Shown here: one piece after another, positions 17,759 through 38,695 of the stretch | Position numbering within the stretch: the stretch's first letter is position 1 | Layout of the letters: every line of letters starts with the position of its first letter | From: Candidatus Thiodiazotropha sp. (ex Monitilora ramsayi) | Lineage (GTDB): Bacteria; Pseudomonadota; Gammaproteobacteria; Chromatiales; Chromatiaceae | Direction of reading: 5' to 3' | Assembly (NCBI GenBank): GCA_025655595.1 | Contig: JAHXIO010000003.1 | Span: 1 to 64,000, forward strand | DNA: 64,000 nucleotides | Made by a program: the position numbers and the translations under genes | The notes under the pieces: model-generated | The model's input: only the letters and a program-made list of their open reading frames with translations | What the model was told of the DNA's origin: nothing | Database searches by the model: none

Positions 17759-19270
17759 ATGATGACAGCCGTGACAGAAAGCTGGGTTTTTACCTTGCTC
17801 GAGGCGCTATCGGTATTATTTATATTCCTGATAGGACTGGGGCTTCTCACCGTCATCGTTCTCTATATCATTGATGTCACCCAGACTCAGCAGACGATCA
17901 GGCGCAACTATCCGGTGATTGGCCGCTTCCGCTACTTCTTTGAGCATATGGGGGAGTTTTTCCGTCAATACTTTTTCGCCATGGATCGTGAGGAGATGCC
18001 GTTCAACCGTGCCGAGAGATCCTGGGCCTACCGTGCCGCAAAAGATGAGAACAATACAATCGCCTTCGGTTCGACGCGAGACCTTCGTCCTGCCGGCTCC
18101 GTCCTGTTCGTCAACTGCCCCTATCCAACCTTGGGGGAGGACGCAGTACCTGCGAGAGAGGTTATCGTCGGACCGCAGTGCGCCAAGCCCTATGCGACCG
18201 ACTCCCTGATCAATATTTCCGGTATGAGCTTTGGCGCTTTGTCGGTACCGGCGGTACGTGCACTCTCCAACGGGGCAAGCAAGGCCGGCTGCTGGATGAA
18301 TACCGGAGAGGGGGGACTCTCTCCCTATCACCTCGAAGGCGGTGCGGATCTGGTTTTCCAGATCGGTACCGCGAAATTCGGTGTGCGTGACGAAGCGGGC
18401 AATCTGTCCGACGCAAAACTCGAGGAGATCGCAGCGCATGAATCCGTTCGCATGTTCGAGATCAAGCTCAGTCAGGGGGCCAAACCCGGAAAGGGGGGGA
18501 TACTGCCGGGTGCCAAGGTGACTGAGGAGATCGCCCGGATCCGTGGCATCAAAGTGGGTCAGGATGCTCTCAGCCCCAACCGCCATCCCGATATCAACAA
18601 CGCTGACGAACTGTTGGACATGATTGAACGGATACGCCGCGTCACCGGCAAACCGGTGGGTTTCAAAACGGTGGTCGGCGCCTACGGCTGGTTGGAGACG
18701 CTGTTTGAAACAATCAATCGAAGGGGCAAGGAGAGTGCACCCGATTTTATTACCGTGGACGGCGCTGACGGGGGCACAGGTGCAGCACCCATGGCCTTGA
18801 TGGACTATGTGGGACTGCCACTCAATGAGAGTCTGCCGATGATGATCGACATGTTGTGCCGATACAATCTCAGGGATCGGGTCAAGGTCATCTGCTCGGG
18901 TAAGCTGATTACGCCCGCAGGCGTTGCATGGGCCCTGGCGGTCGGTGCGGATTTCGTTACCTCTGCCAGGGGGTTCATGTTTGCACTGGGCTGTATTCAG
19001 GCGCTCCAGTGCAACAAGAACACTTGCCCAACCGGTATCACAACTCATAATCCCAAACTGCAGCGTGGACTCGTCTCCAAGGACAAGGCGGAACGTGTGG
19101 CCAACTATGTCAAAAACATGAACTACGAAGTCGGGCTGCTGGCGCACTCCTGTGGCGTCAGGGAGCCGCGTGAATTGAAACGCTTTCATGCACGTATCGT
19201 CATGGAGAATGGTAAATCAGTACCACTTGATGAACTCTATCCGCCAGTCGTGCCGAATGCAGGTGTTTAG
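17759..19270 (+). CDS. FMN-binding glutamate-synthase-family protein, membrane-anchored
   Basis: A 503-residue protein with an N-terminal transmembrane helix (residues 17-40, ALSVLFIFLIGLGLLTVIVL) and a GltB-type FMN barrel: SLINISGMSFGALSVPAVRALSNGA near 142-166, LSQGAKPGKGGILPG near 236-250, FITVDGADGGTGAAP near 328-342 and CIQALQCNKNTCPTGITTHNP near 418-438, with Cys that could hold an FeS cluster. It lacks the glutaminase domain of true GltB, so ammonia-dependent or unrelated chemistry is possible. Gene pairs of this type with acetolactate-synthase-like enzymes recur in proteobacteria. The TAG stop overlaps the first bases of the repeat element at 19269. Confidence 0.85.
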   Translation: MMTAVTESWVFTLLEALSVLFIFLIGLGLLTVIVLYIIDVTQTQQTIRRNYPVIGRFRYFFEHMGEFFRQYFFAMDREEMPFNRAERSWAYRAAKDENNTIAFGSTRDLRPAGSVLFVNCPYPTLGEDAVPAREVIVGPQCAKPYATDSLINISGMSFGALSVPAVRALSNGASKAGCWMNTGEGGLSPYHLEGGADLVFQIGTAKFGVRDEAGNLSDAKLEEIAAHESVRMFEIKLSQGAKPGKGGILPGAKVTEEIARIRGIKVGQDALSPNRHPDINNADELLDMIERIRRVTGKPVGFKTVVGAYGWLETLFETINRRGKESAPDFITVDGADGGTGAAPMALMDYVGLPLNESLPMMIDMLCRYNLRDRVKVICSGKLITPAGVAWALAVGADFVTSARGFMFALGCIQALQCNKNTCPTGITTHNPKLQRGLVSKDKAERVANYVKNMNYEVGLLAHSCGVREPRELKRFHARIVMENGKSVPLDELYPPVVPNAGV

Positions 19271-19562
19271 GGCCTGTTAACACTAATCCAATCGGCTCTG
19301 TTGCGCCTGAAAACGTGCCAATCAAGGCGCGAGGAGAGAGGTTTGGTGATTCCAAATGAGCGACGAGCAACACCGAGTGGCGCTTTTTCAGGCACACCCC
19401 AAGGGCACTTCCTTCGGGGCGCAACCCGAAGGGCTGGGGCTGTTTTTCTACCCAGCGGCGTTATCATTCGCTCATTTAGCACGGCTAAACCTCGCTCATT
19501 CTGCCTTGCTGGGCAAAAAAACAGCTCCAGCAGAGCCGATTGGATTAGTGTTAACAGGCCCT
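19269..19562. repeat. Structured palindromic repeat element, copy 1 (294 bp)
   Basis: Bounded by perfect 32-bp inverted repeats starting AGGGCCTGTTAACACTAATC. Inside are further stems: GCCTGAAAA...TTTTTCAGGC (about 19307-19396), TTTGG/CCAAA, and CCCAGC (19451-19456) with GCTGGG (19508-19513). It is flanked by TA on both sides when the ends are taken as GGGCC/GGCCC. Compared with copy 2 at 38453 it carries two extra segments of 27 and 24 bp; the first contains its own hairpin, the second duplicates CGCTCATT. No transposase is encoded. It resembles a MITE or a large REP-like unit. Confidence 0.85.
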
Positions 19563-19775
19563 AGTACGATCTCTGTGCTCGGATTCCGTTTGGTTAGTCA
19601 GACTGGATATTGCCTCTTCTCTGTAGCGATATGTAAGGAGTGCTATAAAACTGTTTGGGTATTGTGTCCCCGCTGTTAATGAATATTGATCTTTCTTCTC
19701 TTTAATTGATGTTGAAACCAGCGCTTTCCCGGTTTCAATACTCAACTCATGATTAGAGACAAAGGAGAAATCAAT

Positions 19776-20240
19776 ATGAAAACCCTCACTCCCAATTGGC
19801 TTAGGTTAGCCATGCCGATGGCGGCACTTTTCGCGCTGCCACTCACTCTCAGCGCGGAGACGATTACCGGAAAGATCAACGGTCACGAGTGTGCCCACCA
19901 TGGGGCCAGCTGCCCCGTGGAAAAACTCGATCCGCATATTGCCCTCGAATCCGATTTTGTGCTGATGCTGGACAATGGTGATTACGCCTTCCTGCCGAAC
20001 CTGAGCCGGGACATCAAAGTCAGGTATGTGCTGGATACCGTTCAGATTGAAGGGAAGAAGCATCCGCGGTTCAATTCGATCAAGGTCGATATCTTTCGTG
20101 TTAAACAGGGTGACAAGTTCGTCACCGTATGGACACAAAAGCAGGCTGACTTTGAATACAAGGCGCTATACGAGGATGGATACGCCTGGCCGGGCCAACA
20201 GGTTGAGCCTTTGAACCGGCATGATAAGCCGGCAAGTTGA
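19776..20240 (+). CDS. Secreted protein of unknown function with Cys/His motif
   Basis: A 154-residue protein from the ATG at 19776, which follows AAAGGAGAAA; the upstream in-frame ATG at 19749 would bury that site. A signal peptide ends near SAE (about residue 28). The mature part starts ETITGKINGHECAHHGASCP, with two cysteines and a HH pair in a spacing that could bind metal, followed by beta-rich sequence (DFVLMLDNGDYAFLPNL; KVRYVLDTVQIEGKKHP). I do not recognise the family. It stands alone between the repeat element and the convergent ribE gene. A periplasmic metal or haem-binding role is only a guess. Confidence 0.7.
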   Translation: MKTLTPNWLRLAMPMAALFALPLTLSAETITGKINGHECAHHGASCPVEKLDPHIALESDFVLMLDNGDYAFLPNLSRDIKVRYVLDTVQIEGKKHPRFNSIKVDIFRVKQGDKFVTVWTQKQADFEYKALYEDGYAWPGQQVEPLNRHDKPAS

Positions 20241-20259
20241 ATCAGACGTATTACGATTG

Positions 20260-20288
20260 CATCAGCTCCTGATACACAGGAGCTGATG
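20260..20288. terminator. Hairpin between convergent genes
   Basis: CATCAGCTCCT (20260-20270) and AGGAGCTGATG (20278-20288) form a perfect 11-bp stem with a 7-nt loop. It lies between the stops of the secreted protein and of ribE, 20 and 47 bp away. No T-run follows on either strand, so its efficiency as an intrinsic terminator is uncertain. Confidence 0.5.
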
Positions 20289-20334
20289 TTGGCTATTGAA
20301 GAGACCCTGGGCTATGCGCTCAGGAATTGACACG

Positions 20335-20949
20335 CTATTGCGTGATCATTCCTGGGAGGATGCGCTCCACCGTATCGACGATCGCCTGAGTTTGAGGGTC
20401 GATCTCGATATTGATACGGTCACCGGGGTTTCGGCTACCGATATTGGTGCGTTCGAGAGTCTCCGGAATCAGGTTGACATCGAACTCATTCCCGTCGACC
20501 TCGCCGATTGTGAGGCTGATCCCGTCAATGCCGATATAGCCCTTGGTGAAGAGGTACTTACGCCAGTCTGCGGGGAGTTTGAAACGGACCTTGTGATTAT
20601 TCGGTGTTCTTGATACGTCGACCACCACTGCAGTGCAGAGTATATGACCGGACATGGCATGACCGCCGATCTCATCGCCAAAGCGGGCCGCACGCTCATA
20701 GTTCACGTGATCACCTGCCATCAGTTCGCCCAGATTGGTGGCTCGCAGAGTCTCCTGCATCAGATCGAAATCGACCAGGTCCCCATTGATGCAGGTAACC
20801 GTAAGACAGCAGCCGTTATGGGCGACGGAGGCACCGGGTTCAAGGCCTGCCAGCGCCGTCTCCGGGAGGCGGATTCGATGGGTGCGGAAATTCTCCTTTT
20901 CGATAATCGCTACGACTTCTGCGGTACCTTGGACGATGCCTGTGAACAT
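20335..20949 (-). CDS. ribE: Riboflavin synthase
   Basis: A 204-residue enzyme that converts two 6,7-dimethyl-8-ribityllumazines to riboflavin. The start [12 protein letters not shown] is diagnostic. Two lumazine-binding halves are visible: [13 protein letters not shown] near 38-50 with NLGEL and [11 protein letters not shown] near 92-102, and [12 protein letters not shown] near 139-150 with [11 protein letters not shown] near 160-170. It aligns closely in order with E. coli RibC/RibE, the stand-alone type not linked to other rib genes. No FMN riboswitch was seen upstream; the 129-bp gap to the ABC gene shows nothing clear. Confidence 0.95.
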
Positions 20950-21078
20950 TATGCTAATTACCCGTCTTTACAATCTGAGTGATGTTTCTGGTTGATTGAT
21001 GTGATTTGTTGTCTGAGTCGACGTCTGGTGCTTGCGCGCTGGTGGTGGTGCGGCAGATCCACACTATCCAAGTTTTCA

Positions 21079-22902
21079 TTACGCGTTGCTGGTCTGCTCC
21101 TGACGTCCGTAGAGGCTGGTGTAGAGACCGTTATTCTCCAACAGCTCTTCGTGTCGTCCCTCTTCGACAACCCGGCCGTCTTCAAACACCAACACACGAT
21201 CGGCCTGTTTCACGGCACTTAGCCTGTGGGCGATGATAATGGTGGTGCGTCCCTTGAGGAAGGTCTGCAAGGCATTATGCAGGTCCCCTTCGGTGGTGGT
21301 GTCGAGGGCTGAGGTAGCCTCGTCGAGAATCACTACGCTGGGATCGGTCAGTACCATGCGTGCGATGGCCAGGCGTTGGCGTTGACCGCCTGAGAGCCGC
21401 ACTCCAAAGCGACCGATCAGGGTCTCAAGTCCTTCATCCAACGCCTCAACAGTCTCTTTCAGCTGAGCGATTTCCAATGCTTGCCAAAGCCTGCTGTCGT
21501 CAATCTCCCTACCCAGTGTAAGATTGATACGCACGCTGTCGTTGAGGAGGGCAGGGTGCTGCAAAACAGTAGCTACATGGTCGCGAACCACGTCCATACC
21601 GATCTCCTCCACAGGCACATCGTCGAACAGAACACGTCCAGATTTGTATGGATAGAGACCGAGGATGATCTGCACCAGGGTGGTCTTACCACCACCGCTG
21701 GCGCCGACAAATGCAACCTTCTCCCCGGCCTTGATCTCAAGATTCACACCATCGAGTACGCTGGGGCCGTCGCCATAGGCGAATTCGAGATTCTCCAGCC
21801 GCAGGCTGACGGTAGACTTTTCTGAGAAAGGGTTTTTAAGGTGGGGATAAGCGGGCTCCAGGTCGACCCGTAGAAGATCATTGATACGACCCAGGGCCGC
21901 CTGGGCTGCGTTGTAGGCATACTGAATATTCAGTACCTCCTGCACCGGACCCATCATGAACCAGAGATAGGCGTAGACGCCGAGCATCTCACCGATGGTC
22001 AGGTCTGACCAGAGCACCATGAACATGCTGACGGCGCGAAAGATATCGAAGCCGAAGAGGAAGATCATGAAGGAGAGGCGATTGGCTGCGTCACTTTTCC
22101 AGGTAAAGGCGGCTGAATGGTGCCGAATATGGTTGGCCTTATCGATGATGCGGCGGATGTAGTGGCGTTCCCGGTTGCTGGCGCGTATCTGCTGGATTGC
22201 ATCGAGGGTCTCTTCCAGTGACTCCTGAAAGGCCTGAAAGGCTGAATTTTCCCGTTTCTTAAGCTGCTTGACCTTACGTCCGAAGACGGTGGTGAAGTAG
22301 ATCACGATTGGATTTAGAAAGAGGATGAATAGAGCCAGTGCCCAGTTGATCCAGAGTAGTACCACTGCAGTACCAATAATACTGAGGGCGGCCACCAGAA
22401 ATTTACTGGTTGTGATGCTGACAAAGTTATCCACTGCTTCCAGGTCGGTGACCAGGTGAGAGGCGACAGTGCCGCTGCCCATGGTCTCGTAAGAGGACAT
22501 GGAGATACGTTCCAGCCTGCGCAGCAGGTCACGTCGGATATGGTAGATCACGTCCTTTGCGATTCGGGTGAACTGCCATGTCTGCCAGACACCGAAGATC
22601 AGGGCCAGAAAACGGAGCACCAGGGTAAGTACCAGTACCGCCATAATATAGAGCACCGGTCCGTGCCAGGTCTCTGGAAACAAGCTGTTCATCAACCCTA
22701 CAGCTCTACCTGGCTGACCAAGCAGCACTTCATCCACCAACAGGGGGATAAGCAAGGGGACAGGTACGGCGGCCATGGCGCCCAGAATGGCGATCAAGTT
22801 GGCGGCGATCAGCTCACGACGGTGCTGAAACACCATCTGGGTCAGTTCGTTCCAGCTGTATTCGCGGTTTCGTAGGTCCCGCGAAGATGAATCACTACTC
22901 AT
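21079..22902 (-). CDS. ABC transporter, fused permease and ATPase (MsbA-like exporter)
   Basis: A 607-residue half-transporter that should work as a homodimer. Residues about 30-320 hold six transmembrane helices, including LIAILGAMAAVPVPLLIPLLVDEVL. The ATPase domain has Walker A GASGGGKTT near 392-400, Q-loop VLQHPALLNDS, signature LSGGQRQRLAIARM, Walker B VVILDEATSALDT and switch histidine IIIAHRLS. The closest general type is lipid or drug exporters such as MsbA; the substrate is not readable. Its start overlaps the end of the small secreted-protein gene at 22895 by 8 bp, which suggests a functional link. Confidence 0.88.
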   Translation of the reverse strand: MSSDSSSRDLRNREYSWNELTQMVFQHRRELIAANLIAILGAMAAVPVPLLIPLLVDEVLLGQPGRAVGLMNSLFPETWHGPVLYIMAVLVLTLVLRFLALIFGVWQTWQFTRIAKDVIYHIRRDLLRRLERISMSSYETMGSGTVASHLVTDLEAVDNFVSITTSKFLVAALSIIGTAVVLLWINWALALFILFLNPIVIYFTTVFGRKVKQLKKRENSAFQAFQESLEETLDAIQQIRASNRERHYIRRIIDKANHIRHHSAAFTWKSDAANRLSFMIFLFGFDIFRAVSMFMVLWSDLTIGEMLGVYAYLWFMMGPVQEVLNIQYAYNAAQAALGRINDLLRVDLEPAYPHLKNPFSEKSTVSLRLENLEFAYGDGPSVLDGVNLEIKAGEKVAFVGASGGGKTTLVQIILGLYPYKSGRVLFDDVPVEEIGMDVVRDHVATVLQHPALLNDSVRINLTLGREIDDSRLWQALEIAQLKETVEALDEGLETLIGRFGVRLSGGQRQRLAIARMVLTDPSVVILDEATSALDTTTEGDLHNALQTFLKGRTTIIIAHRLSAVKQADRVLVFEDGRVVEEGRHEELLENNGLYTSLYGRQEQTSNA

Positions 22903-23269
22903 GACAACGGCGTCTGGCCTTTAGGTGGCGTAGGGCCTCGATACGACGTTGCGCATCCCGAATACGGGCGTATTCTGTATATTCCGCTGCCCCTGAGTAG
23001 GCCAGGTAGCTCCATGCGCCTGGCGCCCAGAGGGTGCCGGCCCAGATTGAGGCGCCGTGGTAGGGGTCGTTATAAAAGCCCGGCTTGACACTATAGGTCT
23101 GACGGAGCAGGGAAGTGAGCTGCAGCTCCATTTCACTGCAGGTCAGCTGGTCATCCCCCTCTTCGAATAGAGGCGTGACCGGTTGGGGATAGAGGCTTGG
23201 CCCGGCTGTCAAAGCAGATGATAGCAGCAGGCATGACAGTGTGAGCGTTGTAACAAGTGTCTGTCCCAT
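22895..23269 (-). CDS. Small secreted protein upstream of ABC exporter, unknown
   Basis: A 124-residue protein with a signal peptide (cleavage near LTAGPS, about residue 22). The mature region has two cysteines (one in LTCSEMELQL, one four residues from the end), an aromatic Gly-rich stretch (NDPYHGASIWAGTLWAPGAWSYLAYSG) that may be membrane-associating, and a basic helical tail. AGGAGT precedes the ATG. Stop and ABC-exporter start overlap by 8 bp. No family recognised. Confidence 0.65.
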   Translation of the reverse strand: MGQTLVTTLTLSCLLLSSALTAGPSLYPQPVTPLFEEGDDQLTCSEMELQLTSLLRQTYSVKPGFYNDPYHGASIWAGTLWAPGAWSYLAYSGAAEYTEYARIRDAQRRIEALRHLKARRRCHE

Positions 23270-23340
23270 GGTGATATGACTCCTGACGGCCGGATTCGTG
23301 TCACTCCTTTAGCATAGATGAACAAAGAGTGTGAAGCCCG

Positions 23341-25812
23341 TCAGTTAAGCACTGATTCGGTAAAGTCGTAGATCAGGTTGTTTTCCGGACGCTGGACGAA
23401 GTTGCCCTGTACAAAATCGGTGCCGCTGCTCCAGAGTATGGCGATACTGCGCGGGTCCTCCACCTGAGGCGCTATAACTTTGATTCTCAGTTGATGTGCC
23501 AGGGCGATAAGCTCCTTTATCCCTTCGCCATCACCGGATAGCAGGCTGTAGTCGAGCTTGATGTAGCTAACAGGAAGATGGCGAATGATTCGCTCTGTTT
23601 CGGGTGTCAATATGACACGGGTCAGCAGAGTGGTAATGCCGATCTTCTGCAACATCTCGAAGCAGATCTTGGCGGAATTGAGATTTTTTCCCACCTCGTT
23701 GATATTGAACTCAAAGGTGAGGTTCTTGGGAGTGATGTGGCCGCTTCGGTGTTTTTCCTGCAGCCAGCTCAGGCGCTCGATATTCTCAAGCAGATCAGTC
23801 GATTGGGACACGAAGAGGTGCAGCAGGTTGCCCTGCTTGCGGTGCTCATTGACTACATTGATGGCATGGCGTGTAGTCCATTGGTCGATTTTGCCGATTA
23901 ACCCCATCTCCTCCGCAGCAGGGATGAAATCGCCAGCGAGGTGTAGTTTTCCGTCCGGTTCCTGTAGTCGGATCAGGGTCTGATAGTGCGCTTCCGGTGA
24001 ACCCTGCAATGCGACAACGGGCTGAAAAAAGATGTTGAAAAGATCTTCTTTAAACGCCCGGTTAATCAGGTTCTCGATGTCAGCGTTGCCGCCGCCGGCC
24101 GTTTTGGGTTTAGGCTCTGACTTGTGGAGTTTGATCTGGTTGCCGCCCGCTTCCTGTGCTTCGCGGCTGGCTATCTGGGCATGGGCAATGATGGAACGGG
24201 AGTCCTGATTGCCGGACTCCAGTGGAAAGATACCGATACTGAGCGTGGTGCCTGCAGTGCTGTTATCCACCTCGAAGATCTGTTGGGAAACGTGGTAGCA
24301 GAGCTTATTGGCAAGAGACTCAATCTCTTCCAGGTTGGCACGTGAGAGCAACAACCCAAGACTGCTGTCACCGAAACGCGTCAAAATATCCTGCGTCTGA
24401 AGGTGTCCTTTAAGATGTTTGCCAACATCAGCAAGGACCACATCCATGCCGCCGATGCCGACAGTGGCAATTAGCTTCTCCGTGTTGTCGATCTGTAGAT
24501 AGAGTACACAGGTGCTCTCGTCAATGCTTGAATCCGACAACAGGAGGGCATCGAGTCGCTCCAGCAGATAGTTGCGTGTGTGGAGCCCGGTCTCCTTTTC
24601 GCTTCGTGTCCGGTTGCCCGGGCGGTTGCTTAGCTGTCGGGCACGTCGAATACGGTTTGTCACCGTGCTGATCAAATGTTTGGGGGCGATGGGCTTAGAG
24701 AGGAAATCCTCGCCACCGAAACTGAGGGCCTTTAGCTGTTTATCCAGATCCTGTTCACCCGATAGGAAGACGATGGGTACGTCGACAAATTCATTCTGCT
24801 CCCGGATGATGGTGGTCAGCTCTGTACCGCTGGCACCTGGCATATAGAGATCCATCAGGATCAAATCCGGTTTGAAATCGCTCATTGCATCCATCACAAG
24901 CAGGGGATCGATGACGCTGCGGCATTTGAAATCGGCCTTACTCAAAATGGCATCGGCAAAGTCGGCCTGGGCCGGATCATCCTCGACAATCAAAATGCGA
25001 TAGAGCGCGTCTACCTCAATGGAGGTCAACTCCTCGATTCGTTTGGCGACGATAAAGGGATCGACAGGTTTTGACCAGTACGCCTTGGCATCGACGCGCA
25101 TGGCTGCCAAGCGGGTCTGGAGGTCATTGGTGTCGGCAATGAACGTAACGGGCATGCCGGGAAGACCGTTTTCCTTATTCCAGAGGCCGTCCTTTTTACT
25201 TTCGGGAAAGAGTTTCGTCAGCCGGTCGGTATGACTGATCAGTATGCAGTGGTCGTCGGGATTGATTTCATAGTGACGGATCACCTCATCGGCGTCTCTC
25301 ACCAATACCACATCAAAATTCTTTGCCTGCAGGTTACGAGTCAGACTGGCGGCGAGGCCTTCGTCGATTCCAAGCAGAAAAACTTTGCACTCTCCCTTTG
25401 CTCTCGAGATTTCAACGGCATCACTGTCACTATCATCCGCTTGTTGCAGGAGTGTCTCGGCTTGTTGATTGCAAGCCTGGATGGAGGCGTCTTTGAAAGC
25501 ATGAACCAAGCCGTCGAGGGCGACCACGTCATCGTGCTGAGGCTTCAACCCGGTATTGTGATAGTCGCTGAGATGGCTGATTAGGGAATTACCGCTCTGT
25601 GTGATCTGGGGGACACCGAACTTACTGCCTGATTCAGCCAGTGTGGTGATACGCTCGCTCAGCATGTCAAGCAGTTGAGCATCCCAGTCGCTATGCACCA
25701 GTTGATGCCAGTTTTCGAGGATAGCGGAGACTCGTCCCGGTACCTGCTGGAGGAAGGATTGAATCAGGTCGAGTTTTTTAGCTTGTGACTCGGTGGATTT
25801 ATCGCTGCTCAT
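23341..25812 (-). CDS. Multi-domain response regulator with degenerate GGDEF and EAL domains
   Basis: An 823-residue cytoplasmic protein. In order: an HPt-like helical region (about 15-125), a receiver-like domain with VFLLGIDEGLAASL (about 147-265), a second receiver with YRILIVEDDPAQAD and phosphoacceptor Asp in LILMDLYMPG (about 275-395), then GGDEF and EAL domains. The GGDEF site reads FGDSS, and the EAL site reads QTLIR, with FEFNI for FEITE and no DDFGTG loop; only the KLD of the EAL fold remains. Both catalytic sites are therefore probably dead, as in FimX-like c-di-GMP receptors. It stands alone; partners are unknown. Confidence 0.85.
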   Translation of the reverse strand: MSSDKSTESQAKKLDLIQSFLQQVPGRVSAILENWHQLVHSDWDAQLLDMLSERITTLAESGSKFGVPQITQSGNSLISHLSDYHNTGLKPQHDDVVALDGLVHAFKDASIQACNQQAETLLQQADDSDSDAVEISRAKGECKVFLLGIDEGLAASLTRNLQAKNFDVVLVRDADEVIRHYEINPDDHCILISHTDRLTKLFPESKKDGLWNKENGLPGMPVTFIADTNDLQTRLAAMRVDAKAYWSKPVDPFIVAKRIEELTSIEVDALYRILIVEDDPAQADFADAILSKADFKCRSVIDPLLVMDAMSDFKPDLILMDLYMPGASGTELTTIIREQNEFVDVPIVFLSGEQDLDKQLKALSFGGEDFLSKPIAPKHLISTVTNRIRRARQLSNRPGNRTRSEKETGLHTRNYLLERLDALLLSDSSIDESTCVLYLQIDNTEKLIATVGIGGMDVVLADVGKHLKGHLQTQDILTRFGDSSLGLLLSRANLEEIESLANKLCYHVSQQIFEVDNSTAGTTLSIGIFPLESGNQDSRSIIAHAQIASREAQEAGGNQIKLHKSEPKPKTAGGGNADIENLINRAFKEDLFNIFFQPVVALQGSPEAHYQTLIRLQEPDGKLHLAGDFIPAAEEMGLIGKIDQWTTRHAINVVNEHRKQGNLLHLFVSQSTDLLENIERLSWLQEKHRSGHITPKNLTFEFNINEVGKNLNSAKICFEMLQKIGITTLLTRVILTPETERIIRHLPVSYIKLDYSLLSGDGEGIKELIALAHQLRIKVIAPQVEDPRSIAILWSSGTDFVQGNFVQRPENNLIYDFTESVLN

Positions 25813-25985
25813 CAGAATCCGGTTTTTCTGGTTATGGTGCTTTATTCAAGGAACAGATGTTCAGAACTGACGCTGGTCCGGTGCTAATCATATAACTGCC
25901 TCTTCAAACAGAGAATCATAGCGTTTTGTCGGTCCTACAGGAAGCATTCTCACATGGGATTTAGGTAAAATTACGTCAACAGACC

Positions 25986-26405: not shown

Positions 26406-26407
26406 AT

Positions 26408-29283: not shown

Positions 29284-29447
29284 AACGGGATGTTAATTCT
29301 GAATAAATGTTTGAGGCTGATTACAAAATTAGATTGAGAATTGTCCTATGATTAGGACTGTCCGGTTTGGAATACTCTGTGCCGACGCAGAGGGTTGCGG
29401 GCGAATTTCGGACTTGGCAATGGATTCTGCTATTTTCCTTTCTACAG

Positions 29448-30284: not shown

Positions 30285-30333
30285 CCACAACAATTCGGAT
30301 AACCGGTCCGGATCCATGAATTAAAGGCAGTGC

Positions 30334-30362
30334 TTTCTGACACCTCTCAGGTGGTGTAGAAT
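30334..30362 (+). promoter_or_regulatory. Probable prfB promoter
   Basis: TAGAAT (30357-30362) lies 28 bp before the prfB ATG in the context GTGTAGAATCC, the same as the -10 region of the rpsF promoter in this window. The -35 (TTTCTG, 17-bp spacing) is weak. A perfect CACCT/AGGTG inverted repeat (30341-30353) sits between the two boxes. Confidence rests mainly on the -10. Confidence 0.4.
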
Positions 30363-30390
30363 CCCCGCTTTTTCCGGATCTGGATCCATC

Positions 30391-31489
30391 ATGCAAGACA
30401 TCAATCCGATCACCAACAAGATCGACGACTTGAAGGGACGTGCCGCAGCCCTCAGGGGGTATCTTTGACTTCGAGGGCAAGCAGGAGCGCCTGACCGAGG
30501 TTTTAAGGGAGCTCGAGGATCCGGCAATCTGGAACGACCAGGAGCGTGCCCAGTCTCTGGGGCGAGAGCGGGCTTCCCTGGAAGTGGTGGTCTTGACCCT
30601 GGAGTCCCTCTTTAGCGGTCTGGAAGATACCAAAGATCTCCTCGAAATGGCCGTGGAAGAGGGCGACGGGAGTGCCGTCGATTCAATAGAAGCTGACCTG
30701 GCCGAGTTCGAAAAGCAGGTGGGGAAGCTGGAGTTTCGCCGCATGTTTGCCGGCGAAACCGATCATTGCAATGCCTTTCTCGATATCCAGGCGGGATCCG
30801 GCGGCACCGAGGCTCAGGACTGGGCGGAGATGCTGCTGAGAATGTACCTTCGCTGGGGTGAGCACCGGGGATTCAAGACCGAGTTGATCGAGGTCTCGGC
30901 GGGAGAGGTAGCGGGCATCAAGAGCGCCACGATTCGCTATGAAGGCGAGTACGCCTTCGGCTGGTTGCGTACCGAGACAGGTGTTCACCGTCTGGTTCGA
31001 AAATCTCCTTTTGATTCGGGAAACCGTCGTCATACCTCATTTGCTGCCGTTTTCGCCTCTCCCGAGATCGACGACTCCATCGAAGTGGAGATCAATCCCG
31101 CCGATCTTCGGATCGACGTCTATCGCGCCAGTGGTGCAGGCGGCCAGCACGTTAACCGTACAGAATCGGCAGTGCGTATCACCCACAACCCCAGCGGGAT
31201 CGTGGTTCAATGTCAGAACGACCGATCTCAGCATAAGAACAAGGCAACTGCCATGAAACAGCTGAAGGCCAAGCTCTATGAGCTGGAGATTCAGAAGCGC
31301 AGTGCCTCACAGCAGGAGCTCGAGGACAGCAAGTCGGATATAGGCTGGGGCAGTCAGATTCGCTCCTACGTGTTGGATGCCTCACGTATCAAGGATCTGC
31401 GCACCGGTGTGGAGACAGGAAATACACAGGCGGTGCTCGACGGTGGTCTGGATATGTTTATCGAGGCGAGCCTGAAGAGCGGATTATAA
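30391..31489 (+). CDS. prfB: Peptide chain release factor 2 (programmed +1 frameshift)
   Basis: Terminates translation at UGA and UAA codons. The gene begins at the ATG at 30391 ([20 protein letters not shown]) and reaches an in-frame TGA at codon 26 (30466-30468). The shift site AGGGGG-TAT-CTT-TGA-C at 30454-30469 is the canonical RF2 autoregulatory site, and the protein continues in the +1 frame to 31489, giving about 365 residues. The downstream part contains the peptidyl-hydrolase GGQ motif in [17 protein letters not shown] and the SPF anticodon-like tripeptide in [11 protein letters not shown]. Followed by lysS, as in E. coli. Confidence 0.96.
30454..30469 (+). promoter_or_regulatory. 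RF2 programmed +1 frameshift site
   Basis: AGGGGG (internal Shine-Dalgarno-like) is followed by TAT, the slippery CTT and the stop TGA then C, the poor UGAC context. When RF2 is scarce the ribosome slips +1 at CTT and makes full-length RF2; when abundant it terminates at TGA. All elements and their 3-nt spacing match the known site. Confidence 0.95.
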
Positions 31490-31558
31490 ATACATACAAC
31501 CTGAACACTGCCAGGGCATATCGGGCTTGGCGTTATCAGGAATTTGGTTAAACAGTAC

Positions 31559-33052
31559 ATGAACGATCAAATAGACGAGAATAAACTCATCGCACAGCGC
31601 CGAGAGAAGCTGCAGCAGCTTCGCGAGAACGGTAACGCTTTTCCCAACGATTTTCGCCGCAACACCATGGCAGGCGAACTGCATGCGGAGTATGGCGATA
31701 AAACGAATGAAGAGCTGGAGGCGATGAACCTGCGGGTCAGTCTGGCGGGGCGGATGATGAGCCGCCGTGTGATGGGTAAGGCCAGCTTCGCCCATCTGCA
31801 GGATATGTCGGGTCGGATGCAACTGTTCGTGCAGCGGGACTCCCTTGAAGAGGGCGTCTACAATGGCGAATTCAAAAAGTGGGATATCGGCGATATCGTC
31901 GGTGCCGAAGGCTTGCTGTTCAAGACCAAGACCGGAGAGCTATCCCTCAAGGTGGATAAGATTCGCTTGCTGACCAAGGCGCTACGTCCTTTACCGGAGA
32001 AGTTTCACGGACTATCGGATCAGGAGCAGCGTTACCGCCAGCGTTATGTGGACCTGATCATGAACGAATCCGCTCGTGACACCTTCCGCATGCGAACCCG
32101 CATCATTCAATTTATCCGCCAGTTCCTCGATAGTAAGGATTTCATGGAGGTGGAGACCCCCATGATGCAGGTGATCCCCGGTGGCGCCACCGCACGTCCG
32201 TTCATCACCCGGCACAATGCCCTCGATATGGAGATGTTCCTGCGCATCGCACCGGAACTCTATCTCAAAAGACTGGTAGTGGGTGGTTTCGAAAGGGTCT
32301 ACGAGATCAATCGTAACTTTCGTAACGAGGGTCTCTCCACCCGACACAATCCTGAGTTCACCATGTTGGAGTTCTATGAGGCCTATACCGATTACAACGG
32401 GCTCATGGATCTGACCGAGGAGATGCTGAGAGGTCTCTGCGAGCATGTGCTCGGTACGACTCAGATCGACTACCAGGGAGAGAGTTACGATTTTGCCAGT
32501 CCTTTCCAGCGCATGACTGTGAAAGAGTCGATTCTCCACTTCAATCCCGATATTCAGGCTGCCGAACTGGATGATCCGTCCCAGGCCAGAGCCATTGCTG
32601 AGCGGCTGGAGATTCCCCTGAAAGAGAGTTACGGACTCGGCAAGGTTCTGATAGAAATCTTCGAGAAGACCGTCGAGCATCGTCTGATGAACCCGACTTT
32701 TATTACCGCCTATCCAACAGAGGTCTCACCGCTGGCGAGGCGAAATGATGACGATCCCTTCGTTACCGACCGTTTTGAATTTTTTGTCGGCGGACGCGAG
32801 ATCGCCAACGGCTTTTCCGAGCTCAACGATGCGGAAGACCAGGCGGAGCGCTTTCGCAAGCAGGTGGAAGAGAAAGAGGCGGGTGACGATGAGGCCATGC
32901 ACTATGATGAGGATTATGTGCGTGCTCTGGAACACGGCATGCCGCCGACGGCTGGTGAGGGTATCGGTATCGATAGGTTGGTTATGCTGCTGACCGACTC
33001 TCCGTCGATCCGTGACGTGCTGCTGTTTCCGCATATGCGGCCTGAGATCTGA
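31559..33052 (+). CDS. lysS: Lysyl-tRNA synthetase, class II
   Basis: About 497 residues from the ATG at 31559; a TTG at 31544 would add five. Charges tRNA-Lys. The N-terminal anticodon-binding OB domain has [23 protein letters not shown]. Class II motifs follow: motif 1 in [21 protein letters not shown], motif 2 in [24 protein letters not shown], and motif 3 in [22 protein letters not shown] near the C-terminus. Downstream of prfB by 69 bp, the usual gammaproteobacterial pair. Ends before a long hairpin at 33115. Confidence 0.97.
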
Positions 33053-33114
33053 GATTTTTTATAGATTTCAGTCCGCAAACAAACGCGGATAAGCGTAAAT
33101 ATTAGTTCATTAGA

Positions 33115-33179
33115 ATGGTGGGGCATGGCCCCAACCTGCACGATCGAATCCAAGGTTGGCAGGGGCCACGCCCCGCCAT
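33115..33179. terminator. Long GC-rich hairpin between convergent genes
   Basis: ATGGTGGGGCATGGCCCCAA on the left pairs with the stretch ending GGGGCCACGCCCCGCCAT on the right, and the inner AACCT pairs with AGGTT; a 2-nt bulge and two mismatch or wobble pairs interrupt a stem of about 22 bp around a 15-nt loop. It sits between the lysS stop and the leftward antiporter gene. It has no T-run. A bidirectional transcription barrier or a dispersed palindromic unit are both possible; only one copy is seen here. Confidence 0.5.
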
Positions 33180-33221
33180 ATATCCTCTATTTTTCCCAAT
33201 CATTTTCTGACAATACACATC

Positions 33222-35204
33222 TCAATGGCCGTAAAGCAGTAACCCCTCTGCATGCTCCAGATGCTGAGGTGTTCCGGCAAGCACTAGAACGTCTCCAGAC
33301 TGTAGACGTGTTTCCGGTCCCGGTTGTTCTCCGCGGATACCGCCTCGGCGTACGGCGGTGACACTCACATCCCAATCCCAGAGATGCAGATCTTCGATGG
33401 TGTGATCCACCGCAAAGGCATGCTCCGGCAGGGTTACCGTATGCAGGCGCTCCTGGAAGCCTTCATCGTGTTCGATATCTATGTGTTCCTCTCCATGAAA
33501 GAAATCGCGCAGCAGTTTATAGTGACCCTCGCGGATCTCACGCATAATCTTGAAAATGCGTGATCCCGGTACTTTGAGCAGTAGCAGTAGCTGTCCGCCC
33601 ATCATCAGGCTTGCCTCAACGGCTTCAGGCATGACCTCAGCGGCGCCCGCTGCTTCCAGTTCTTCCATGTGAGTATCATCCTTGGTCCTGACTAGCACGG
33701 GAAGATTCGGTGCTGACTCCTTGACATGGGTAAGTATCTTCATGGCGCTGGGATGATCCTCGAATGTCAGCACCACGGCGCTTGCACGGTCCAAACCAGC
33801 TGCATGCAAGATCCCCTGACGATCCGCATCACCCAAGTGCACGGGTTCACCCGCTTCATGCGCCTCACGGATAACTCCAGGATCCAGGTCAAGGGCGACA
33901 TAGGGGAATCCTTCACGATCCAATAAACGACCGATATTCTGCCCGATACGGCCATAGCCGCAGAGGATTACATGCTGATCAAGATCTTTAGCCTCTGCAT
34001 AAATGTCACCGATTTCACCCAAGCCTGTGCCACTGTTTCTTAGCGAACAGAAAGTCTGTGCCAATCTGCCGTTGTAGCGGATCATGAAAGGAGATGCTGC
34101 CATGCTGATGATGATGGCGGCGAAAAGGAACTGGCCCACTTCGTCAGGAAGTAATCGATTCCCGAGAGAGAGATCAAGCAGGACAAACCCAAATTCGCCA
34201 CCCTGCGCCAGAAGGAGTCCAGAACGGAATGCCGTGGCAACAGACCGGCCAGTGATGCGCGCCAACAACAGGATGATGCCTGCCTTGAATACGATAAGCA
34301 CCAATGCAAGGAGCAGCACCCAGTGGATAATGGGAATCAGAGAGACCAGATCCACCCGCATGCCGACGGTGACGAAAAAGAGGCCGAGAAAGACATCCTG
34401 AAACGGGCGTATATCGGCCTCGATCTGATGGCGATACTCGGTCTCTCCCAGCATCATACCGGCAAGAAAGGCGCCAAGCGCAAGCGAAAGCCCCGCTTCG
34501 TGAGTGAGCCAGGCAGCGGCGAGGGAGACCAGGAGTACGCTGAGAGTGAAGAGCTCAGCAGAACGGGCACGTGCAATCTCGTGAAAGAGAGGTCTGAGGA
34601 ACCAGTGACCGAAGGCCATAATGGCGGCAAAGACCAAGGCTGCTTTCAGCAGGGCGTATAAGAGGGGTTGTGCCAGGCCCGATTCTCCATCGCCGGCCAG
34701 AATCGGTATCACTACCAAGAGGGGAATCACGGCAAGATCCTGGAATAGCAGAATACTGACACCCAGACGCCCGTGTTCGGAGTTGATCTCAGCCTGTTCG
34801 GAGAGTTGTTTGATAACAATCGCGGTTGAGGAGAGGGCGAGAATTGCACCGGCGATCACTGCGGCCTGTGGTGTGAGTCCAAGCAGCCATGCCACAAGCG
34901 CCGCAATGGCACCTGTGATCAATACCTGGCTGCCACCCAGCCCAAACACGCTGCCCTTCATGGCGACCATCTGCGGCAGGGAAAACTCCAGGCCGATGGA
35001 AAACAGTAGGAAAACCACACCGAATTCTGCAAGAAAACGAGTGTCTTCTGTGGAGGCGACCATGCCTGTGCCGAAAGGTCCCACCAGGATGCCGACTATT
35101 AAGTAACCCAGAATGGGCGGTAAGTGCAGCCTTCTGAATAGCGTCACGGTCAACACGGCAACACCCAGTAGGAGCAGAATGACTTGAAGTGTGTGTATAT
35201 CCAT
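33222..35204 (-). CDS. CPA2-family cation:proton antiporter with TrkA domains (Kef/Ybal type)
   Basis: A 660-residue inner-membrane protein. Residues 1-385 form a 12-13-helix transporter with GYLIVGILVGPFGTGM and FGVVFLLFSIGLEFSL. A TrkA-N nucleotide-binding domain follows with the Rossmann motif VILCGYGRIGQNIGRLL near 412-428, LDLDPGVI and VHLGDADRQGIL, and then a TrkA-C domain (about 570-655, VRRGGIRGEQPGPETRLQSGDVLVLAG). Such proteins export K+ or Na+ in exchange for protons under nucleotide or glutathione control. No ancillary kefF/kefG gene is adjacent. Leftward, monocistronic. Confidence 0.9.
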   Translation of the reverse strand: MDIHTLQVILLLLGVAVLTVTLFRRLHLPPILGYLIVGILVGPFGTGMVASTEDTRFLAEFGVVFLLFSIGLEFSLPQMVAMKGSVFGLGGSQVLITGAIAALVAWLLGLTPQAAVIAGAILALSSTAIVIKQLSEQAEINSEHGRLGVSILLFQDLAVIPLLVVIPILAGDGESGLAQPLLYALLKAALVFAAIMAFGHWFLRPLFHEIARARSAELFTLSVLLVSLAAAWLTHEAGLSLALGAFLAGMMLGETEYRHQIEADIRPFQDVFLGLFFVTVGMRVDLVSLIPIIHWVLLLALVLIVFKAGIILLLARITGRSVATAFRSGLLLAQGGEFGFVLLDLSLGNRLLPDEVGQFLFAAIIISMAASPFMIRYNGRLAQTFCSLRNSGTGLGEIGDIYAEAKDLDQHVILCGYGRIGQNIGRLLDREGFPYVALDLDPGVIREAHEAGEPVHLGDADRQGILHAAGLDRASAVVLTFEDHPSAMKILTHVKESAPNLPVLVRTKDDTHMEELEAAGAAEVMPEAVEASLMMGGQLLLLLKVPGSRIFKIMREIREGHYKLLRDFFHGEEHIDIEHDEGFQERLHTVTLPEHAFAVDHTIEDLHLWDWDVSVTAVRRGGIRGEQPGPETRLQSGDVLVLAGTPQHLEHAEGLLLYGH

Positions 35205-35388
35205 TCGTAGAGGAGTCTCTAACCGTCAACAGAAGGGCAGTCTGCGGAAAAAACATAATAATATCCACGGAAAGGATTAATCCGGGTCCTATTAGGTGGA
35301 AATTGCTTGAAACGCAATAATTTACATGGGGTATTGATTGGCAAAGTGATAAAATGACCGTTTTAGTATTACAAGACATCACAAAGAC

Positions 35389-37695
35389 GTGGCCAGAAAA
35401 AGCAAAAGACGATCCCCCGCTAAGGATCCCCATCACGCCCGCGAGGCGAGAAAATACGACAACCCCATTCCCAGCCGTGAATTCATCATGGAGACCCTGA
35501 CAGAGAAGGGTGTGCCGATGGACTTTCCGGGTATTGCCGATCAGTTGGGTATCGGTGATGAGGAGCAACTGGAGGCGCTGCGGCGGCGACTGCGGGCGAT
35601 GGAACGGGATGGCCAAATGGTCCGGAACCGGAAGGATAACTACTGTCTGGTCAACAAGCGTGACCTGATTGTCGGACGTGTCATCGGCCACCCTGACGGT
35701 TTCGGTTTTCTCAAGCCCGATGACGGCGGTGACGATCTCTATCTCTCTTTCAAAGAGATGCGTTCAGTATTACACGACGATCGGGCCGTGGTACGCGTGA
35801 CGGGCATGGATCGCCGCAACCGGCTGGAAGGCGCTGTGGTCGAGGTGTTGGAGCGCAACACCCAATCGGTGGTCGGCAAGCTCTATCAGGAGAGCGGCGT
35901 CGGTTTTGTGGTCCCTGATTCGAAACGCCTGAGTAAGGATATCGTCATTCCCAGCAGCGAAATCGGTGAGGCCAAGCGAGGACAGATGGTGGTGGCGGAG
36001 ATCCTCGACCAGCCTACCAAGCGAACGCCGCCCATCGGTCGCATTGCCGAGATACTGGGTGATCACATGGGACCCGGGATGGAGACCGATATCGCCATCC
36101 GTACCCACAATATCCGGAACAGCTGGCCTGAAGAGGTTGAGCGCCAGATAACAGGCCTGACGCCTGAAGTAGCAAAAACGGATAAGACGGGACGGGTCGA
36201 CCTGCGTAAGTTACCACTGGTGACCATCGATGGCGCCGATGCGCGGGATTTCGACGACGCGGTCTATTGCGAGCCAAAACCCAAAGGTTGGCGTTTGCTG
36301 GTCTGTATTGCCGATGTCTCCCACTATGTCCAACCGGGAACGGCCCTGGATCAGGAAGCGAGGGCGAGAGGAAATTCGGTCTATTTTCCGGATCGGGTGA
36401 TACCCATGCTGCCCGAGGTGCTGTCGAACGGCCTATGCTCCATCAATCCCGAGGTTGATCGGCTCTGTATGACATGCGAGCTCTATATCGACCAGCAGGG
36501 TGCAGTCAAGCGTTCGCGTTTCTTCCCTGCTGTCATGCGCTCACACGCCAGGCTGATCTACGATGATGTGGCAGCCATGCTGGAGGGGGATTCCGCGCTC
36601 TGTAACAAACACGCCGAGATACTGCCTCATCTGCATCATCTCTATCAGCTCTATCAGATTCTCCAGGCTCAACGGGCCGAGCGGGGGGCCATCGACTTCG
36701 ACACCACCGAGACCCGCATTGAGTTCAATCAGCAGAAGCGGGTGGAGCGGATTGTGCCGGTTGTGCGTAACGATGCTCACCGCCTGATTGAGGAGTGTAT
36801 GCTGGCGGCCAATGTCGCTGCAGCGCGGTTTTTGCTGCGTAAGAAACAGCCGGCGCTCTATCGGATACATGAAGGTCCGGCAGAAGAGAAACTCACCGAT
36901 CTCAAGGAGTTTCTCGGAGAATTGGGGCTCAGCCTGCCGGGTGGAAAAAAGCCGAAAGCCGCCGACTACGCGTTTTTGTTGGAGCAGATCCGTGGACGAC
37001 CCGATCACCACCTGATCCAGACCGTCCTTTTGCGTTCTCTCTCACAAGCGGTCTACAGCTCCGATAATGTGGGCCATTTCGGCCTCTCCTATCAGGCCTA
37101 TACTCACTTTACTTCACCGATTCGCCGCTATCCCGATCTGATTGTCCATCGTGCCTTGAAACACGCTATCGAGAATGGCAGTGCGGACGATTTCGAATAT
37201 GCAAAACCGGAGCTGCAGGGTTTGGGCGAGCACTGTTCGAGTACGGAACGCAAAGCCGACGAGGCAACTCGTGACGCTCTGGACTGGCTCAAATGCGAGT
37301 ACATGCAGGATAAAGTGGGCGAGACCTTTAGCGGTATCATCACCAGTGTGAACTCATTTGGTGTTTTTGTTGAGCTGGACGAGATCTATGTGGACGGATT
37401 GGTCCATATCACCGCGCTGGACAATGACTACTACCACTACGACCCGGTGGGTCACCGGCTGACAGGTGAGCGCACCGGAAAAGTGTTGCGACTTGGCGAT
37501 TCCATCAGCATTACTGTGGCAAACGTCAATCTGGACGATCGCAAGATCGATTTTCTACCCGCACAGGAGAGTGCGAGTGGCAAAAAAAGGACTAAACGAA
37601 ACCGGGGTGGTGAGCCAAAGCCAAAACCGGAAAAAGCAGCAAAGAAGCCTGCCAAAATCAAGAAGAAAACCCGGCGTCGGAAAAAGCCAGCATAA
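35389..37695 (+). CDS. rnr: Ribonuclease R
   Basis: A 768-residue processive 3'-5' exoribonuclease. From the GTG start come a basic N-terminus and winged-helix region (SREFIMETLTEKGVPMDFPG), cold-shock domains (GRVIGHPDGFGFLKPD), the RNB catalytic domain with VTIDGADARDFDDAVYCE near 280-297 and the conserved CIADVSHYV, HFTSPIRRYPDLIVHR near 571-586, and an S1 domain (GITTSVNSFGVFVELD-like, about 641-725). The tail is Lys/Arg-rich. The GTG at 35389 is chosen because the protein then begins as other RNase R proteins; the site has only a weak ribosome-binding sequence. The stop overlaps rlmB by one base. Confidence 0.96.
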   Translation: MARKSKRRSPAKDPHHAREARKYDNPIPSREFIMETLTEKGVPMDFPGIADQLGIGDEEQLEALRRRLRAMERDGQMVRNRKDNYCLVNKRDLIVGRVIGHPDGFGFLKPDDGGDDLYLSFKEMRSVLHDDRAVVRVTGMDRRNRLEGAVVEVLERNTQSVVGKLYQESGVGFVVPDSKRLSKDIVIPSSEIGEAKRGQMVVAEILDQPTKRTPPIGRIAEILGDHMGPGMETDIAIRTHNIRNSWPEEVERQITGLTPEVAKTDKTGRVDLRKLPLVTIDGADARDFDDAVYCEPKPKGWRLLVCIADVSHYVQPGTALDQEARARGNSVYFPDRVIPMLPEVLSNGLCSINPEVDRLCMTCELYIDQQGAVKRSRFFPAVMRSHARLIYDDVAAMLEGDSALCNKHAEILPHLHHLYQLYQILQAQRAERGAIDFDTTETRIEFNQQKRVERIVPVVRNDAHRLIEECMLAANVAAARFLLRKKQPALYRIHEGPAEEKLTDLKEFLGELGLSLPGGKKPKAADYAFLLEQIRGRPDHHLIQTVLLRSLSQAVYSSDNVGHFGLSYQAYTHFTSPIRRYPDLIVHRALKHAIENGSADDFEYAKPELQGLGEHCSSTERKADEATRDALDWLKCEYMQDKVGETFSGIITSVNSFGVFVELDEIYVDGLVHITALDNDYYHYDPVGHRLTGERTGKVLRLGDSISITVANVNLDDRKIDFLPAQESASGKKRTKRNRGGEPKPKPEKAAKKPAKIKKKTRRRKKPA

Positions 37696-38441
37696 TGTCG
37701 GATAGGGGAGAGTGGATATACGGTCTCCATTCGGTACGTGCCGCATTGGAGAGAGAAGCGCAGATTCTGCAACTGTGGGTCGATTCGGGCAGACAGGATC
37801 AACGCATCCGGGAGATACTGAAGCTCTCGACGCAGGCTGGTATCCCCATCAGACAAGTCACTGGTCGGGAACTTGACGAGCTGGCACAGAGCGGCAGGCA
37901 TCAAGGCGTGATAGCAAGTCTGCGCCAGCAGCAGACTCAGGATGAACCCTATCTGAAAGCCATGATAAAGCGGCTGGATGTTCCCCCTTTTCTGTTGATT
38001 CTGGATGAGGTTCAGGATCCCCATAATCTGGGCGCATGCCTGCGTACCGCTGAAGGGGCCGGCGTACAGGCTGTGATCACGTCGCGAGATAGATCGGTCG
38101 GTCTGACCCCCACGGTCAGAAAGGTTGCCAGCGGAGCTACGGAGAGTATCCCGTTTATTCAGGTCACCAATCTGGCAAGAACCATGAAGTGGTTGAAAGC
38201 GGAAGGTGTCTGGTTGGTCGGCACGGCCGGTGAGGCTGATCAGGGACTCTACAAGACAGACCTGGTGGGTCCCTTAGCCCTTGTGATGGGAGGGGAAGGC
38301 AAGGGCCTGCGCCGATTGACCCGTGAAAACTGCGATTTGTTGGTCAGCCTGCCAATGGCCGGATCTGTGGAGAGCCTCAATGTTTCCGTTGCTACAGGTG
38401 TGGCACTCTATGAAGCTGTCCGGCAGAGAAGACTAGGCTGA
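37695..38441 (+). CDS. rlmB: 23S rRNA (guanosine-2'-O-)-methyltransferase RlmB
   Basis: A 248-residue SpoU-family enzyme that methylates G2251 of 23S rRNA. The N-terminal substrate-binding domain begins WIYGLHSVRAALER. The SPOUT knot carries the three SpoU motifs: DEVQDPHNLGACLRTAEGAG near 109-128, LALVMGGEGKGLRRL near 196-210 and SLPMAGSVESLNVSVATGVALYE near 218-240. The ATG shares a base with the rnr stop (TAATG), the common rnr-rlmB pair. The repeat element copy 2 begins 11 bp after its stop. Confidence 0.97.
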   Translation: MSDRGEWIYGLHSVRAALEREAQILQLWVDSGRQDQRIREILKLSTQAGIPIRQVTGRELDELAQSGRHQGVIASLRQQQTQDEPYLKAMIKRLDVPPFLLILDEVQDPHNLGACLRTAEGAGVQAVITSRDRSVGLTPTVRKVASGATESIPFIQVTNLARTMKWLKAEGVWLVGTAGEADQGLYKTDLVGPLALVMGGEGKGLRRLTRENCDLLVSLPMAGSVESLNVSVATGVALYEAVRQRRLG

Positions 38442-38452
38442 CGGCTGTAACT

Positions 38453-38695
38453 AGGGCCTGTTAACACTAATCCAATCGGCCCTGTTGCACCTGAAAAAGC
38501 GCCAATCAAGGCGCGAGGAGAGAGGTTTGGTAGTTCCAAATGAACGACGAGCAACGCGGAGTGGCGCTTTTTCAGGCGCACCCCGAAGGGCTGGGGCCAT
38601 TTTTCCGTCCAGCGGCGTTATCATTCGCTCATTCTGCCTTGCTGGACGAAAAAATAGTCCCAGCAGGGCCGATTGGATTAGTGTTAACAGGCCCT
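38453..38695. repeat. Structured palindromic repeat element, copy 2 (243 bp)
   Basis: Same 32-bp terminal inverted repeats and internal stems as copy 1 at 19269. Relative to copy 1, pairs change on both sides: GGCCCTG/CAGGGCC against GGCTCTG/CAGAGCC in the outer stem, and TCCAGC (38608-38613) with GCTGGA (38641-38646) against CCCAGC/GCTGGG. It lacks the 27-bp and 24-bp insertions of copy 1. Left flank TA, right flank TTA. It sits immediately downstream of rlmB, as copy 1 sits at the end of a gene on the same strand. Confidence 0.85.

Follow-up and report, generated by a model that had tools for sequence, protein, structure and literature searches.

A double-palindromic miniature transposon with IS5-type ends and hairpin-capped arms in a Candidatus Thiodiazotropha genome

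The window, i.e. the whole stretch of DNA analysed here, comprises the first 64,000 nucleotides of contig JAHXIO010000003.1 (forward strand) from Candidatus Thiodiazotropha sp. (ex Monitilora ramsayi). It contains two copies of a palindromic, intergenic repeat element, whose nature is the subject of this report. Copy 1 (19269–19562, plus strand, arm A to the left) is 294 bp long with its outer A and T included; copy 2 (38453–38695, plus strand) has 243 bp. Both are bounded by AGGGCCTGTTAACACTAATCCAATCGG and its complement, and a 25-base end has four matches in the window (0.00 expected from 100 shuffles). The 32-bp terminal inverted repeats (TIRs) lie at 19270–19301 (plus) and 19530–19561 (minus) in copy 1 and at 38454–38485 (plus) and 38663–38694 (minus) in copy 2; their outer 17 bp are near-invariant in the family, and the inner part covaries. 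A 53-nt hairpin, which we term the capping hairpin, closes each arm; those of arms A and B are homologous and inverted relative to each other. Covariance model R1, described below, finds both arms in copy 1 (19323–19375, plus, 73.6 bits; 19456–19508, minus, 71 bits), and in copy 2 it finds arm A (38507–38559, plus, 70.1 bits) and a truncated arm B (38613–38641, minus, 33.1 bits) that lacks 24 positions between GAG and CGA. An earlier note, made from the letters of the window, had described this anatomy of TIRs and inner stems, and both copies are exactly where it placed them.

The same note had resolved the 51-bp length difference between the copies into segments of 27 and 24 bp, one of them a hairpin, and this was borne out. 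The 27-bp module (19396–19422, plus) occurs in copy 1 without a counterpart in copy 2, and is indeed a hairpin; its flanks repeat, and its borders are given to within a few bases. The 24 bp are the arm-B loop that is gone from copy 2, a loss that we read as a probable deletion between two GAGCG direct repeats. Both copies are predicted to fold very stably as RNA: –162.7 kcal/mol for copy 1 (shuffled mean –96.9, z –12.45) and –145.1 kcal/mol for copy 2 (shuffled mean –79.7, z –12.90). No mechanically called open reading frame (ORF) of at least 100 aa lies wholly inside either copy. Those that touch copy 1 are an upstream gene that ends at its first bases and a 107-aa ORF that runs out of it, and a 135-aa ORF overlaps copy 2 at its last bases. 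That copy is preceded by a gene (37695–38441) which, by its sequence, resembles those of TrmH-type rRNA methyltransferases, and a 249-aa ORF starts 41 bp past it.

Although the element had been described as having two copies, this holds for the window only. The host genome (4.68 Mb, 46 contigs) yielded 78 BLAST matches, many of which pair one end with the opposite end, and these include 16 elements of 241–319 bp besides fragments. The arm-B loop is missing in two of the 16 (L001 and L003). A 20-base end, allowing up to three mismatches, occurs 59 times in this genome, with some of the sites being single ends or collapsed palindromes of 44–54 bp. Three of these collapsed copies (L070, L072 and L073) consist of two ends only, and the one at L070 (G000:C1:145296–145339) is a perfect palindrome. 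The family extends well beyond the host. A 19-base end (at most one mismatch) was found in 31 of 146 sampled genomes of the same taxonomic family; the six from the host’s genus include five with 46–180 hits and one with 14. A scan of the sequence collection with the 20-base end returned at least 116 stretches. Among the matches listed, many belong to Candidatus Thiodiazotropha or other lucinid clam symbionts, and Gammaproteobacteria predominate among the carriers, alongside Zetaproteobacteria, Burkholderiales-type records and a few others. Phage sequences gave no match to the element. Three plasmid records matched in part, and the two that were read have the same architecture with other TIR variants. 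A replichore polarity of single end sites, considered for a congener assembled as one contig, was rejected as an artefact: 10 of 20 seemingly unpaired sites had an exact opposite end within 300 bp.

Have these repeats moved? The TIRs of the family begin GGGCCTGTTAACACTA, and among 62 elements of 220–330 bp a TA dinucleotide flanks 61 on the left, 56 on the right and 55 on both sides; TA makes up 3.5% of the dinucleotides in the window. Copy 1 has TA on both sides (right TA at 19562–19563). Its left TA and the first G of the element together form a TAG stop codon (19268–19270, plus) that ends the 503-aa ORF at 17759–19270. At the corresponding site, relative L358 has TAG where the host has TAG, element, TAG. 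Copy 1 entered the TA of the stop codon of the upstream ORF and regenerated that stop, because the left TA precedes the element’s first G. Many other elements likewise start exactly at the end of a flanking mechanically called ORF. An end-like piece is present in the intergenic region matching the copy 1 site in L366 and L368. Empty sites were also seen for copy 2. Its neighbours are adjacent in all 11 loci of relatives that were read, with no end pair between them, and the intergenic gap is 36 bp in the three closest relatives vs. 294 bp in the host; L312 has a single end-like site (four mismatches) at this locus.

The ends of the element are shared with larger transposons in other genomes. 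Elements of 823 bp with matching ends were found at L189 and L119 (Burkholderiales and Pelomonas records) and at L214. The terminal 16–17 bases are identical to those of L189 and L119, and L214 has two mismatches in 17 at one end. Each of these elements holds two overlapping ORFs. Protein scans, which covered L189 and L119, placed ORF B above the cut-off of 110 for the NCBIfam family transpos_IS5_3 (131.7 and 130.8 bits, respectively) and ORF A below it (100.9 and 100.7 bits); the Pfam domains DUF4096 and DDE_Tnp_1 scored above their cut-offs in the proteins of both. A run of seven A at the ORF overlap of L189 suggests a frameshift, a feature that is typical of this group of insertion sequences (IS). 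We take elements with these ends to belong to the IS427-like group. Of 30 transposase loci in the sampled taxonomic family, one was surrounded by a related end pair (L240, 818 bp, three mismatches per end), and five others had single end sites at four mismatches with no pair. The earlier note had allowed that the element might turn out to be the trimmed end of a known IS. This is true of its ends, which match IS5-type elements elsewhere, but not of its body, which is not part of the 823-bp elements that were read.

Several other loci carry such ends. At L130, L173, L174, L181 (Xanthomonas contigs) and L196, a matching terminal repeat is followed by sequence unlike the MITE; at L173 some 230 bases separate the repeat from the end of the contig. 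These loci may represent complete IS copies at which the assembly broke. In the Pelomonas record L119, a second IS left end in the same orientation (1865–2027) lies 162 bp outside the 823-bp element, so that matching ends also enclose a unit of 985 bp.

The transposon itself is thus a miniature inverted-repeat transposable element (MITE) of a known kind: it is short, non-coding and multicopy, it has TIRs and a target-site duplication, and its ends are common to an autonomous element, the latter in other genomes. We assign a probability of about 0.8 to the broader reading that the repeats are a non-autonomous transposon mobilised in trans by an IS5-type DDE transposase, with a double-palindromic body in which pairing is, most likely, kept at the DNA level. 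According to this proposal, the transposase would recognise the GGGCCTGTTAACACTA ends, and insertion at YTAR would duplicate the TA. The body would be a double palindrome, made up of a long outer stem and a pair of arms that bear the conserved cap in opposite orientations. The pairing of the arms would most likely be maintained in DNA, either by template-switch correction between them or because hairpins on either strand are selected for; the capping hairpin would most likely be recognised as a folded single strand.

A number of observations pull the other way. At copy 2 the left TA is present, but on the right one extra T precedes the TA; the duplication is therefore inexact, one of seven exceptions among the 62 elements. 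A transposase with matching ends, which had been suggested as something to look for, exists as an IS5-type enzyme in other genomes; none was detected in the host, where protein, NCBIfam and Pfam queries gave zero matches (the protein query was run without a positive control, and the two family searches found matches in eight and nine of 14 control genomes). In the host’s genus, one of the six sampled genomes has a single weak transposase match (G007, E 2.8e-10). Of six searched genomes with these ends around other sequence, five gave no match to the capping domain; the sixth (Pelomonas, G544) has eight such hits, located in elements with other ends. Because no driver was seen in the host and the genomes that bear the ends mostly lack the cap, the IS5 link rests on the ends and not on co-residence. 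Which transposase moved the host copies is accordingly something that we infer from those ends.

Part of the length variation in the family comes from a smaller unit nested within it. The 27-bp difference described above consists of a 23-bp hairpin, CCCCAAGGGCACTTCCTTCGGGG, plus a four-base direct repeat. The hairpin occurs 13 times in the host genome (up to three mismatches), and all 13 occurrences are inside or between element matches. In oriented elements it occupies three sites (at about position 63, 128 or 155, and 244 or 271), always in a single orientation. Repeats such as CGCA/CGCA or CGTA/CGTA border it, and copies without the hairpin have one repeat there. Its presence at these several sites gives rise to the length classes of 241, 265, 292 and 319 bp. 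The hairpin gives the impression of a tiny, separate unit of insertion or duplication. Besides the window occurrence at 19396–19422, it was seen in L003, L012, L016, L116, L129, L132, L141, L154 and L183.

We now consider what keeps the arms paired. The earlier note had claimed that where the two window copies differ inside stems, both sides change. Seven of the 71 base pairs shared by the folds of the two strands differ between the copies. Three of these differences are two-sided (TA to CG, GC to AT and CG to TA) and four are one-sided (GC to AC, CT to AT, TG to CG and TA to CA), so the claim was overstated for this pair. It fares much better with more copies. We aligned 56 oriented elements, 16 from the host and 40 from other genomes; L179, L195, L200, L019, L180 and L182, which are unrelated, rearranged or missing an arm, were set aside from the 62. 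Over the 71 pairs there are 3692 Watson-Crick cells, 101 G.U, 90 A.C, 75 other mismatches and 18 gaps (3692 of 3958 ungapped cells being Watson-Crick). In the closest sequence pairs, two-sided changes occur at 0.012 per position pair vs. 0.0009 if the sides were independent. Thus, stem differences without compensation do exist, yet two-sided change lies far above independence, and the maintenance of pairing stands. Of the two options in the earlier note, selection for pairing and repair through it, either may apply, although an RNA strand as the sole selected form is disfavoured by the symmetry between the strands.

This symmetry bears on the possibility that the repeat is a functional RNA, such as a stabiliser of mRNA tails or a processed small RNA, with covariation reflecting selection on the transcript. 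Selection on one RNA strand should clearly favour G.U over A.C; on the common pairs the two are near-equal, which tends to argue against such selection acting alone. They remain so in ten representatives of less than 80% identity (32 G.U and 30 A.C). By region, the G.U/A.C counts are 34/25 for the outer stem, 49/40 for arm A and 18/25 for arm B. When each arm is read in the direction of its cap, G.U is slightly in excess (74 vs. 58), in line with an RNA role, as are the stable folds of both window copies and the purine oppositions and G.U on one strand of the capping hairpin (see below). A structure derived from the plus strand gives 257 G.U vs. 97 A.C, which counts against pairing at the DNA level; we think that this excess is biased, the pairs having been chosen by their plus-strand energy, because pooling pairs from either strand gives 270 and 257. 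Also on that side is the consensus fold, whose energy is –135.4 for the plus strand and –122.8 for the minus strand, so that a strand effect retains some room. Folds of single sequences, in contrast, favour plus in 20 of 56 copies and minus in 36. Genomic placement offers the transcript little help. For 51 elements placed between mechanically called ORFs (a set that leaves out L179, L195, L200 and eight unplaceable elements), 17 are co-directional in sense, 10 co-directional in antisense, 15 convergent and nine divergent, i.e. there is no clear preference of orientation among the 27 co-directional cases. Among eight Pelomonas elements of single-armed appearance, all four co-directional cases have a cap that runs antisense to the ORFs on both sides, too few to decide. 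Rfam gave no match in the window; the best sub-threshold hit, over L010 and L001, had an E value of 0.38. Transcripts of either strand would still permit an RNA role, because the cap lies on one strand in arm A and on the other in arm B. Overall, we regard a functional RNA as improbable, and an RNA role for the stems as possible but not favoured.

The covariation instead fits arm-to-arm correction in DNA or selection for hairpins on either strand. These differ in whether function is involved at all: replication template switching could keep quasi-palindromes symmetric, mimicking compensation, with no function for the pairing. This account overlaps with our own, and we give it a substantial chance, if somewhat short of even. 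It would explain the strand symmetry, as well as the finding that sites in stems and unpaired sites change at about the same rate (the unpaired set including conserved motifs). It would also explain the time course: as divergence increases, two-sided differences climb from 0.012 to 0.30 per pair, while one-sided differences go from 0.038 to about 0.07 by 6–9% divergence and stay flat to 16–20%. Template switching that keeps stems paired has been published, as passages of PMC8794818 describe. Past 20% divergence, however, the one-sided differences climb again (0.09–0.17). Moreover, two-sided changes are not clustered (0.103 observed vs. 0.098 expected, 98 sequence pairs) and so lend no support to multi-base conversion tracts, a point that also detracts from correction as part of our reading. 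The conservation of the cap sequence and its purine oppositions over many genera is more than correction alone would suffice to produce. All of these counts come from related rows, and the cells are not independent events, which further tempers the case for maintenance in DNA. That this maintenance occurs at the DNA level is nonetheless what we infer as most likely.

Two further explanations can be dealt with quickly. The element shares with the ERIC family of enterobacteria a palindromic, intergenic character and, by eye, a TGAGCGA beside the central stem. We rejected this by-eye idea of homology after testing the covariance model on one E. coli ERIC copy: the ERIC core scored 2.9 bits, level with other places of the 644-base locus (3.0, 3.0 and 2.8), and the filtered covariance search listed nothing at the core up to E 10. 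Membership in, or homology to, ERIC is thus very unlikely. Chance or an assembly artefact is already refuted, as the shuffles gave no hits, the ends occur in records of many other organisms, and the cap occurs in many genomes of the phylum.

The capping hairpin has a distribution of its own. Of 88 distinct domains, 48 went into model R1. In those 48, the named structure has 82.1% paired cells vs. 68.0% when shuffled and at most 42.2% when slid, for a structure that was named partly by eye from that very alignment. Ten hairpin pairs show two-sided changes (7.2 in shuffles); the 23 further pair types are no excess over shuffles (22.5), and the innermost-sequence helix 4–6/50–52 shows no two-sided change in the 48 domains. 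In a survey of the phylum, taken as Pseudomonadota, R1 matched 88 of 398 sampled genomes, in 45 of 213 genera; filtering was strict, and no more than 14 candidates were scored in any one genome. Run over 82 sources, it gave 145 matches, from which 136 distinct rows were obtained. Oppositions 12.41, 13.40 and 16.37 are G.A or A.G in 126, 125 and 129 of these rows, respectively; 9.44 is G.A or A.G in 99 and Watson-Crick in 27. Neither C.T nor T.C occurs at any of the four positions. A G.U opposition is present at 19.35 in 104 of 131 ungapped rows, and a tandem pair is located at 9–10 in one arm type and at 8–9 in the other.

These purine oppositions are consistent with tandem G.A pairs in a folded single strand, whether RNA or DNA. 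Plain sequence conservation could give most of them, which weakens the case for a recognised fold, and the model used to collect the 136 rows already expects them. The exchange of G.A, A.G and Watson-Crick pairs at 9.44, on the other hand, speaks for pairing. The cap is not tied to one kind of end: carriers have the ends GGGCCTGTTGACGTTT in Halomonas, GGGTCTGTTGACGTTTTG in Azotobacter and CTAGAAACGGCAGTTG in one Pelomonas element, and at 14 of the 32 loci examined an end pair of the tested type was not found. Carriers with other TIRs were seen at L257 (1885–2152, Halomonas), L258 (1946–2214, Azotobacter) and L297–L304 (Pelomonas, with a single-armed look). Among the papers listed by searches of open-licence literature, none describes the element or the cap in its title or abstract start. 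There, the TIR strings gave one match to an 11-base string per paper, in papers whose titles are on unrelated subjects, and internal strings were unmatched. The hairpin is therefore widespread and, in Rfam and in these paper searches, apparently undescribed. As a tentative proposal, which we consider rather less probable than not, it may be a functional nucleic-acid module, single-stranded DNA or RNA with tandem G.A pairs, that unrelated palindromic transposons have captured across the phylum; its inverted doubling would make the element work either way round.

Covariation usually counts as evidence of RNA function. This family, which offers many replicates of long stems that covary alike on both strands, can help to separate RNA selection from arm correction at the level of DNA. 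How does it compare with known systems? REP/REPIN sequences are short hairpins tied to a tyrosine (HUH) RAYT transposase. Like the present element, they are palindromic repeats, some in paired inverted arrangement; by description, they are set apart from it by its long TIRs and duplicated TA. ERIC, which we take to be the same as RU-1, also has a TA target, and the likeness extends to small size, intergenic location, palindromy and a central stem. However, the ends differ, no covariance-model similarity was found for the one copy tested, and ERIC is about half as long as the element or less, RU-1 being 127 bp in passages of PMC2759123. Passages of PMC10969869 describe QMITE2 of Coxiella as a MITE with a stable predicted transcript, a core of 113–145 bp and direct repeats of 7–9 bp; the core size and the repeats, vs. 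TA here, set it apart as so described. The closest parallel is to MITEs derived from the IS5 family, which are likewise short, without coding capacity seen, bounded by TIRs and TA flanks, present in many intergenic copies and provided with ends common, in our case, to the 823-bp IS5-type elements. Unlike those, the element has no driver detected in its host, is a double palindrome and bears a conserved cap that is also found in elements with unrelated ends; the recurrence of this cap behind different ends points to either a hidden host factor or a step in the movement of such elements that has been overlooked.

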